Notes under the pieces: model-generated
What the model saw: only the letters and a program-made list of their open reading frames with translations
Told to the model about the DNA's origin: nothing
Database searches by the model: none
Shown: piece after piece, positions 28,065 through 45,794 of the stretch
Numbering within the stretch: the first letter of the stretch is position 1
How the letters are laid out: each line of letters opens with the position of its first letter
Assembly (NCBI GenBank): GCA_016192945.1
Contig: JACPTE010000029.1
Coordinates: 1-55,224 of the forward strand
Direction of reading: 5' to 3'
Source: Candidatus Woesearchaeota archaeon
GTDB lineage: Archaea > Nanobdellota > Nanobdellia > Woesearchaeales > UBA10216
DNA length: 55,224 nt
Position numbers and translations under genes: made by a program

Positions 28065-28203
28065 TTCTATTCCACAGTAATTCATCTTTTATCAGACTAG
28101 TGTGGTAAAAAGTATATTTTCTAGTTTAGAAATGTTTAAATAGTTCATGCTTGATTATAAATGCAAATTTTAAAAAAATAGAAGTTGTTAGCACTAAAAT
28201 TGG

Positions 28204-28281
28204 TTAAAACCTGTTTTGTTGGCGCAAAACGGTTTTAGTTGTTTAGTTCATTGGAAACATATACACTTGTTGGCGCAAGTG
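28204..28281 (+). ncRNA. Twin hairpins with identical 8-nt loops upstream of ftsZ
   Basis: Hairpin 1 (28206-28236): AAAACC/GGTTTT and GTTTT/AAAAC with one bulged T, loop GTTGGCGC at 28218-28225. Hairpin 2 (28264-28281): CACTT/AAGTG, loop GTTGGCGC at 28269-28276. The stems differ while the loops are identical, which is the mark of an RNA recognised at its loop. A TATA-like GTTTAAATAG lies at about 28131-28142, so the element could be transcribed. It may be the ftsZ leader or a separate small RNA. Confidence 0.65.
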
Positions 28282-28315
28282 ACTTGTTCTGAAGGAAGTA
28301 TATGCAGTAGCACCT

Positions 28316-28339
28316 ATTTAAACATTTCTATGTTTAAAT
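28316..28339. promoter_or_regulatory. Perfect 10-bp inverted repeat before ftsZ
   Basis: ATTTAAACAT and ATGTTTAAAT are perfect complements around a 4-nt spacer. The left arm reads as a TATA box (CTATTTAAAC), so the repeat may be both ftsZ promoter and operator, or an RNA hairpin if transcription starts upstream. It lies about 65 nt before the ftsZ ATG. Confidence 0.6.
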
Positions 28340-28404
28340 GGTTGTTTGCTAAAATATACTTTAAAGAATATAAAAAACCTTTTCAAAAAAGGGGGTTGGG
28401 CAAA

Positions 28405-29469
28405 ATGGACTTTATCGTGGAAGATGCATTGAAGGCCGCTGAAGAGCACAAGTTTGGCGGTGGCGTGATAGGACAGGCAAACATAAAGGTGATGGGCGTT
28501 GGAGGAGGAGGCAACAACATGGTTTCCTGGCTCCACAGGAAGTCAGTCAAGGGAGCGGAAATACTCGCCTGCAACACAGACAAGCAGCACCTTGAAATTT
28601 CTTCTGCTGACAAAAAATTCCTTATAGGAAAAGACCTGACAAGAGGCTTGGGATGCGGCGGATTCCCTGAAAGAGGAGCTGAAGCTGCAAAAGAAGCGCT
28701 GCAGGACATAAAAGAGGCTCTCAGAGAGTCAGACATGGTATTCGTATGCGCAGGGCTGGGAGGCGGAACAGGAACAGGAGCTGCACCAGTCGTTGCAAAG
28801 GTAGCAAAAGAGACTGGCGCAATAGTAATAGGCACAGTCACAATGCCATTCAAGATTGAAAGGGCCAGGATTGACAAGGCAGAATTCGGACTAAGCCAGC
28901 TAAGGCAGGTATCTGACACTGTCATAGTCATAGACAACAACAGGCTGGTACAGATTGCAGGAAACCTGCAGGCATTTGCAGTTGCAAACGAGCTGGTCTC
29001 AACCATGATAAAGGGAATTGTGGAAACAATAGCTGTACCCTCCCTTGTCAACCTTGACTACGCAGACGTAAAGGCAATAATGACAAACGGAGGCGTAGCG
29101 GCAATAGGCGTCGGAAGCTCTGACACAAACAACAGAGTGGAAGAGGCAGTACAGGGAGCATTGAGCAACCCCCTGCTGGACATCAGCTACAAGGGAGCAA
29201 CAGGAGCCCTGATACACGTTTCCGGCGGGCCAGATATGACGCTTGACGAAATCAACAGGATAGGCGAACTCGTCACAGAAAGCCTTGACGACGATGCGAA
29301 CGTCATCTGGGGAGCGAGGGTATCCGAGAACATGAAGGGCAAGATAACAGTGATGACAATAATAACAGGCGTAAAGAGCCCGTGGATACTTGGAAAGCTT
29401 GACAGGAGGCAGCAGACAGTCAAGAACCGCGAATACGAGGACGAGCTCGGCATAGAGGTGATTAACTAA
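28405..29469 (+). CDS. ftsZ: Cell-division GTPase FtsZ
   Basis: The 354-residue protein has the tubulin signature GGGTGTG at 119-125, an N-terminal nucleotide site IKVMGVGGGGNNMVSWL, T5/T7-loop region FAVANELVSTMIKGI and a conserved C-terminal domain (ISYKGATGALIHVSGGPDMT). It polymerises into the division ring. The frame is open upstream to 28216, but ATG 28405 gives the family N-terminus and follows GGGGGTTGGG. A short Lys/Arg-rich tail is at the end. The upstream 340 bp carry structured elements that may control expression. Confidence 0.97.
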   Translation: MDFIVEDALKAAEEHKFGGGVIGQANIKVMGVGGGGNNMVSWLHRKSVKGAEILACNTDKQHLEISSADKKFLIGKDLTRGLGCGGFPERGAEAAKEALQDIKEALRESDMVFVCAGLGGGTGTGAAPVVAKVAKETGAIVIGTVTMPFKIERARIDKAEFGLSQLRQVSDTVIVIDNNRLVQIAGNLQAFAVANELVSTMIKGIVETIAVPSLVNLDYADVKAIMTNGGVAAIGVGSSDTNNRVEEAVQGALSNPLLDISYKGATGALIHVSGGPDMTLDEINRIGELVTESLDDDANVIWGARVSENMKGKITVMTIITGVKSPWILGKLDRRQQTVKNREYEDELGIEVIN

Positions 29470-45698: not shown

Positions 45699-45794
45699 GC
45701 CCCAGTAGCTTAGACATGCCATTAAGCATGGAGCAACAGGTAGAGCGTGCGGCTGTTAACCGCAAGGTCGGCAGTTCGAGTCTGCCCTGGGGCG
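45699..45794 (+). tRNA. tRNA-Asn (GUU) with a D-loop intron
   Basis: Acceptor GCCCCAG (45699-45705) with CTGGGGC (45787-45793), discriminator G. Anticodon stem TGCGG/CCGCA with loop CTGTTAA (GTT). The T arm is GGCAG/CTGCC. D stem GCTT (45708-45711) and GAGC, but the D-loop holds a 23-nt insertion at 45714-45736. Removal gives D-loop AGCAGGTA, a normal length. The anticodon loop has no intron. Confidence 0.93.
45714..45736 (+). other. Noncanonical tRNA-Asn D-loop intron
   Basis: BHB-like: central helix GCTT (45708-45711, D stem) with GAGC (45731-45734, intron), bulges AGA (45712-45714) and AAC (45735-45737), inner helix CATGC/GCATG with CATTAA loop. The outer helix is weak. Intron GAGC mimics the D-stem 3' strand. 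Confidence 0.7.

Follow-up and report, generated by a model that had tools for sequence, protein, structure and literature searches.

A conserved array of hairpins sharing one loop upstream of ftsZ in Woesearchaeota and related archaea

Woesearchaeota and related DPANN archaea share a conserved, hitherto uncatalogued element in front of ftsZ: an array of two to five hairpins, all presenting one loop. The first-pass annotation of our window, a 55,224-nucleotide stretch of DNA from a Candidatus Woesearchaeota archaeon, had described two hairpins with identical loops upstream of ftsZ; this observation is real and larger than first described. The reading we place first, because promoters converge on the array and wobble pairs are polarised between its strands, is a cis-antisense RNA system for ftsZ, in which two RNAs would meet through repeated complementary loops of YUNR type (Y-U-N-R in the loop of one partner), and we give it about an even chance of being correct.

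Results

Twin hairpins in the window

The hairpins of the window and the gene that they precede are:

28206-28236, minus strand: hairpin I, loop at 28219-28224, CGCCAA on the minus strand and UUGGCG on the ftsZ strand
28264-28281, minus strand: hairpin II, loop at 28270-28275
28391-28395, plus strand: ribosome-binding site of ftsZ, GGGGG, with GGGG kept in 126 loci
28405-29469, plus strand: ftsZ, 354 aa, ATG at 28405; Pfam Tubulin 2.8e-46, FtsZ_C 9.9e-34

Hairpin I has the core GTTTTG-TTGGCG-CAAAAC (28213-28230), which AAAACC/GGTTTT and one bulged T extend to 28206-28236, and hairpin II reads CACTTG-TTGGCG-CAAGTG (28264-28281); the stems are unrelated and the hexaloop TTGGCG is common to both. 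The shared loop reported earlier thus stands, whereas its size of 8 nt (GTTGGCGC) does not, as it comprises the 6-nt TTGGCG and a G-C closing pair. The 55-kb window contains 29 perfect 6-bp stems with hexaloops, among which no loop but TTGGCG is repeated, and a covariance model of the hairpin finds two convincing matches in the host's own genome, both in the window array (26.1 and 25.5 bits). A third match (19.4 bits) does not have the TTGGCG loop and was rejected as a second site. The FtsZ records nearest to the host's are from Candidatus Woesearchaeota.

Conservation of the array and its linkage to ftsZ

A DNA search found the hairpin pair before ftsZ every time in genomes of the same family. 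Across 80 Woesearchaeota ftsZ loci, counting stems of at least 5 bp, 43 loci contain 76 hairpins with the TTGGCG hexaloop, compared with none in 100 dinucleotide shuffles; no other loop exceeds 6 in the real data, and the maximum for any loop in the shuffles was 5. Each stem pair varies on both sides among 67 distinct hairpins, with a covariation score of 0.93 versus 0.18 when shuffled; inner pairs were chosen as paired, which inflates the percentage of pairing and leaves the variety of pair types unaffected. The stems covary and the loops do not, in agreement with the original description of a constant loop on divergent stems, and conservation of the loops in relatives, fixed beforehand as the point on which the observation could fail, was found.

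The proposed association with ftsZ also holds across the class, with covariance-model matches almost only 100-300 nt upstream of the gene, other orders included. A single-hairpin covariance model (R1) was run on 145 genomes of the order; of 84 matching places retrieved, 68 are TTGGCG hairpins 97-298 nt before ftsZ, 4 are arrays at contig ends with ftsZ not on the contig and 12 are mostly single hairpins, several of them within coding sequence. Of 24 places in other orders of the class, 18 lie upstream of an ftsZ gene encoding a protein with 59-72% identity to FtsZ of the window, 2 are inverted beside ftsZ and 4 are single and chance-like; a phylum-wide draw gave no match outside the class among the matches listed. 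No family in Rfam 15 reaches its curated threshold over the array in the window and 18 relatives, and our literature search found neither a paper on such a motif, in keeping with the earlier statement that none was described, nor a structured regulatory RNA linked to ftsZ in archaea. Elsewhere in the window, 1758-1871 and 45729-45786 have Rfam tRNA matches without an ARAGORN call, the former long enough to hold an intron.

Two hairpins away from ftsZ deserve separate record. On the minus strand at L103:1509 (G100:C4), a strong lone UUGGCG hairpin (30.6 bits) lies directly 5' of a ribosome-binding site before a small unknown gene, by chance or as a second target. At L131:1740-1915 (G029:C2), a candidate small RNA unlinked to ftsZ combines a separate BRE/TATA with a perfectly paired closing stem of 10 bp, a T5 run and one UUGGCG hairpin that matches the ftsZ-array hairpin of this genome over 24 identical bases; it lies before a 73-aa ORF, perhaps a ribbon-helix-helix protein (no Pfam match), and was looked for and not found in relatives.

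Loop variants switch as a unit

Loci without TTGGCG often repeat a variant with the same core: YTGGACA (L021, L022), TTGGTC (L071, L087), TTGGTT and CTGGTAA (L079, L090, L091, L093) or TTGGCTT (L019). All loops of one array switched together in about four lineages. L019 and the L021/L022 group branch in the same part of the FtsZ tree as the window, and on this tree loop classes change a minimum of 13-16 times, losses included. YUGG is kept on the ftsZ strand in every variant found, UUGGUY, YUGGACA and UUGGCUU among them, so that a YUNR sequence, UUGG or CUGG, is present throughout, and some lineages keep many unpaired UUGGU copies. A likeness of CUGGUAA to tRNA anticodon loops was set aside, since UUGGCG, a loop of six bases, has no such likeness.

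The closing pair is TA in 105, GC in 42, AT in 21 and TG in 12 of 186 cases. The kissing contact suggested at first through a self-complementary GCGC must be abandoned in that form: the last C is a base of the closing pair, which in relatives is U-A, G-C, A-U or U-G, and the GCGC kiss is not conserved because its flanking G-C is this variable pair.

The strand read away from ftsZ appears to carry the selected fold

Single imperfect pairs inside the stems, written on the ftsZ strand, are CA (23), AC (10), TG (3) and GT (2), a ratio of 33 to 5 that counts distinct hairpins and not independent events; looser rules for interior imperfect pairs give 48 to 5 in the same direction. Where selection maintains an RNA fold, intermediate pairs are expected to be G-U on the strand that folds. 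Since CA and AC on the ftsZ strand are U-G and G-U on the other, selection appears to act on the fold of the minus strand, an RNA read away from ftsZ with CGCCAA loops. The minus strand also has the lower fold z-score (-2.75 versus -1.28; lower in 92 of 104 loci), a difference to which composition contributes in part, and in the window the values are -2.72 for minus and -0.77 for plus. Raw minimum free energy favours the plus strand (79 of 104 loci), depends on composition and was replaced by these shuffle z-scores, in which that effect is smaller. A structured antisense strand, as a cis-antisense system would have, is therefore seen in the wobble ratio and in the minus z-score, the latter partly confounded by composition. 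The bias of the closing pair is opposite to that of the stem interior (UG 12, CA 1, on the ftsZ strand).

Convergent promoter motifs flank the array

The promoter motifs and predicted transcripts of the window are:

28109-28120, plus strand: upstream element of P1, AAAGTATATTTT, conserved in the P1 logo (AAaaTATATttT)
28128-28143, plus strand: P1, BRE/TATA AGAAATGTTTAAATAG, facing the array and ftsZ; predicted start about 28165
28165-28404, plus strand: predicted ftsZ mRNA leader from P1, carrying UUGGCG loops
28165-28293, minus strand: predicted antisense small RNA of about 130 nt with CGCCAA hairpin loops, ends predicted
28172-28178, minus strand: candidate terminator, a U7 run at the predicted 3' end of the minus-strand RNA
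28287-28293, minus strand: TTCTGAA (minus TTCAGAA), in the conserved TTCTAAA/TTTAGAA block at the expected P2 transcript start
28314-28329, minus strand: P2, identical to P1 but inverted; it faces the array and points away from ftsZ
28351-28362, minus strand: P1 upstream element in inverted orientation (AAAATATACTTT)

Each strand of the 55 kb contains the 16-mer AGAAATGTTTAAATAG a single time. The two copies are placed head to head around the array, and the 12-mer AAAGTATATTTT stands upstream of both at unequal spacing. Elements resembling AAAGTATATTTT also seem to precede ftsZ promoters in relatives that have no array, and may be a transcription-factor site. In nearly every locus, P1 (archaeal BRE/TATA AGAAATATTTAAATA) faces the array from the left and P2 from the right: on a motif scale reaching 11.2, mean scores are 10.45 for left plus and 10.0 for right minus, whereas the opposite orientations give 9.1 and 9.0, the level of background. 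At the level of motifs, the array thus has the opposed promoters, one on each strand and both directed across it, that are expected of a cis-antisense pair. In 86 loci a P1-like site precedes hairpin I by 24-59 nt, and the end of the TATA is mostly 30-45 nt (P1) or 35-45 nt (P2) from the nearest hairpin; as transcription starts about 23 nt from the end of the TATA, both starts would fall just outside the array. TTTAGAA is conserved at the expected P2 start, the block reading TTCTAAA downstream of the array, and U-runs of at least 5 occur in the minus-strand 3' flank of 23 of 49 loci, compared with 6 of 49 in the opposite flank.

Between the array and ftsZ we found no P1-like plus promoter above background, and ftsZ is therefore probably transcribed from P1 across the array, though an unrecognised site to the right of P2 could be its promoter. 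P2 itself was rejected for that role, since its BRE lies on the ftsZ side and P2 hence faces the array. Six loci upstream of ftsZ (L036, L039, L050, L059, L142, L171) have a near-perfect dyad, ATATAAATATT...AATATTTATAT, around P2; such a dyad, or an RNA hairpin across the TATA of P2, was rejected as a general feature: it is confined to a subset, and the mean is 7.3 versus 6.3 in swaps. RNAalifold gave no pairs in the downstream part, and an AGAA/TTCT closing stem around the array did no better than in swapped loci.

An inverted array in two genomes

In L191 and L208, whose genomes belong to a single family within the class, the array is reversed between ftsZ and a divergent gene that, from its sequence, we take to be gatD-like. 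There UUGGCG falls on the RNA transcribed away from ftsZ, the array is faced by a P2-like site (CGAAAGCTTTATATT), and we found no good promoter facing ftsZ beyond the array. Both wobble changes (n=2) are G-U on the strand read away from ftsZ, and the CGCCAA strand is again lower or equal in z-score, so that the strand difference in z-scores reflects loop composition in part. If both senses of the loop can be used, pairing of complementary loops would explain the inversion better than a protein that reads a single sequence, a point drawn from two genomes and two changes.

Discussion

A predicted cis-antisense RNA pair at ftsZ

Under the cis-antisense reading, transcription from P1 would give ftsZ mRNA a leader of about 240 nt whose hairpins present UUGGCG. 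From P2, the opposite strand would yield a small RNA that presents CGCCAA and stops at a U-run close to P1; its length would be about 130 nt, and more where hairpins are more numerous. Contact between the two would begin loop to loop, the YUGG start of the ftsZ-strand loop fitting a YUNR U-turn, and pairing would lower FtsZ by blocking refolding of the leader, by double-strand cleavage or by stopping transcription. Both transcripts, their ends, their pairing and the effect on FtsZ are predictions from features of the DNA: covarying hairpins, conserved loops, linkage to ftsZ, convergent promoter motifs and wobble polarity. Several points weigh against this reading. RNAs encoded in cis are complementary whatever their loop, so that the identity of loops within an array and their joint change are left unexplained; the closing-pair bias is reversed; the tests of a closing stem and of a P2 dyad were negative or weak; loop composition accounts for part of the z-score difference; ftsZ could have an unrecognised promoter to the right of P2; and the two genomes with an inverted array gave no good promoter that faces ftsZ beyond the array.

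Because cis-antisense pairing fails to explain it, the concerted change of loops favours a shared partner acting in trans, and a loop-binding partner, as supposed at the outset, is possible. We tentatively suggest, as a proposal with appreciably less than an even chance, that the array is a class-wide regulatory RNA whose hairpins all offer their loop to the same trans-acting protein or RNA, which co-evolves with it and couples division to a signal, loop specificity switching as a unit between lineages; to our knowledge, no regulatory principle of this kind is described in archaea. A related account, which we consider rather unlikely and yet the strongest rival, takes the array RNA from either strand as a multivalent binder of a loop-reading protein or RNA, resembling a Csr/Rsm decoy and controlling FtsZ through its place in the leader or by titrating an FtsZ regulator. 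It accommodates the repetition of one loop, two to five times, on stems unrelated to each other, the joint change of the loops between lineages, the numerous unpaired UUGGU copies of some lineages and the extra unlinked hairpin of G029 with its own promoter and U-run; it sits poorly with the lack of a second array in the host's genome and of almost any elsewhere, with the inversion in two genomes and with a linkage to ftsZ that persists at 59-72% FtsZ identity, where the gene of a trans-acting RNA would be expected to move.

That the array is solely a 5' leader element in cis, with a regulator on the UUGGCG strand from P1 altering translation or transcription of ftsZ and P2 of minor importance, seems to us improbable: P1 is the strongest promoter motif and has no plus-strand counterpart nearer ftsZ, and the position before the gene is constant, but the wobble pairs point to the minus strand, the orientation and spacing of P2 and its initiator have been conserved, and the array is inverted in L191 and L208. 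We regard as more doubtful still an element acting as DNA, in which palindromes close to the ftsZ promoters are bound or form cruciforms; mostly Watson-Crick stems and the occurrence of both orientations, if the inverted cases are real, would suit it, whereas the stems share no sequence and so offer no ordinary binding site, the 33:5 polarity implies single-stranded RNA of one strand, and promoter spacing fits transcription starts just outside the array. Chance or low complexity, for which the ordinary fold of the ftsZ strand taken by itself (z -0.77) might speak, has a negligible claim, being refuted by conservation: 76 hairpins versus 0, covariation of 0.93 versus 0.18 and recurrence throughout the class.

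We know of no mechanism that sets FtsZ levels in DPANN archaea with genomes near 1 Mb. A class-wide element whose loops switch in concert would permit a direct test of RNA-based division control, as the array predicts ends, strand and loop pairs, and its natural loop variants are ready-made specificity swaps.

Comparison with known systems

The bacterial decoy RNAs CsrB and RsmZ resemble the array in carrying several hairpins with one short loop motif that contains GG. Their repeated GGA loops bind CsrA or RsmA through ANGGA, and their genes lie away from a fixed target; no ANGGA was found in the loop here, which reads UUGGCG or CGCCAA, and we know of no archaeal counterpart of these decoys.

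The RepZ loop of plasmid ColIb-P9 contains UUGGCG. In plasmids of the I-complex (IncI, IncK, IncB/O), complementary loops of RNAI and stem-loop I start sense-antisense pairing, comparable to the role we propose for CGCCAA, and in IncB/O plasmids the antisense-loop bases GCC are decisive and start the kiss (PMC10724649). These bacterial systems differ in having a single kissing loop and a pseudoknot switch and in controlling plasmid replication.

We know of no YUNR-loop sense-antisense pair with an array of repeated identical loops. YUNR loops speed contact and mark sense-antisense pairs such as hok/Sok, in which the motif lies in the loop of the sense RNA, as UUGG or CUGG does here (PMC6562991). 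Pairs of the hok/Sok type differ in being bacterial and in controlling toxins.

StfZ of Escherichia coli is a cis-antisense RNA of ftsZ whose overexpression lowers FtsZ and blocks division (PMC9628754). Compared by description, it differs from the array in being bacterial, 366-552 nt long and located in the ftsA-ftsZ region, and the excerpted account mentions neither an array of identical loops nor twin promoters (PMC9628754). As far as that account goes, StfZ is an antisense RNA that arises just upstream of ftsZ, as we propose for the RNA read from P2 (PMC9628754).
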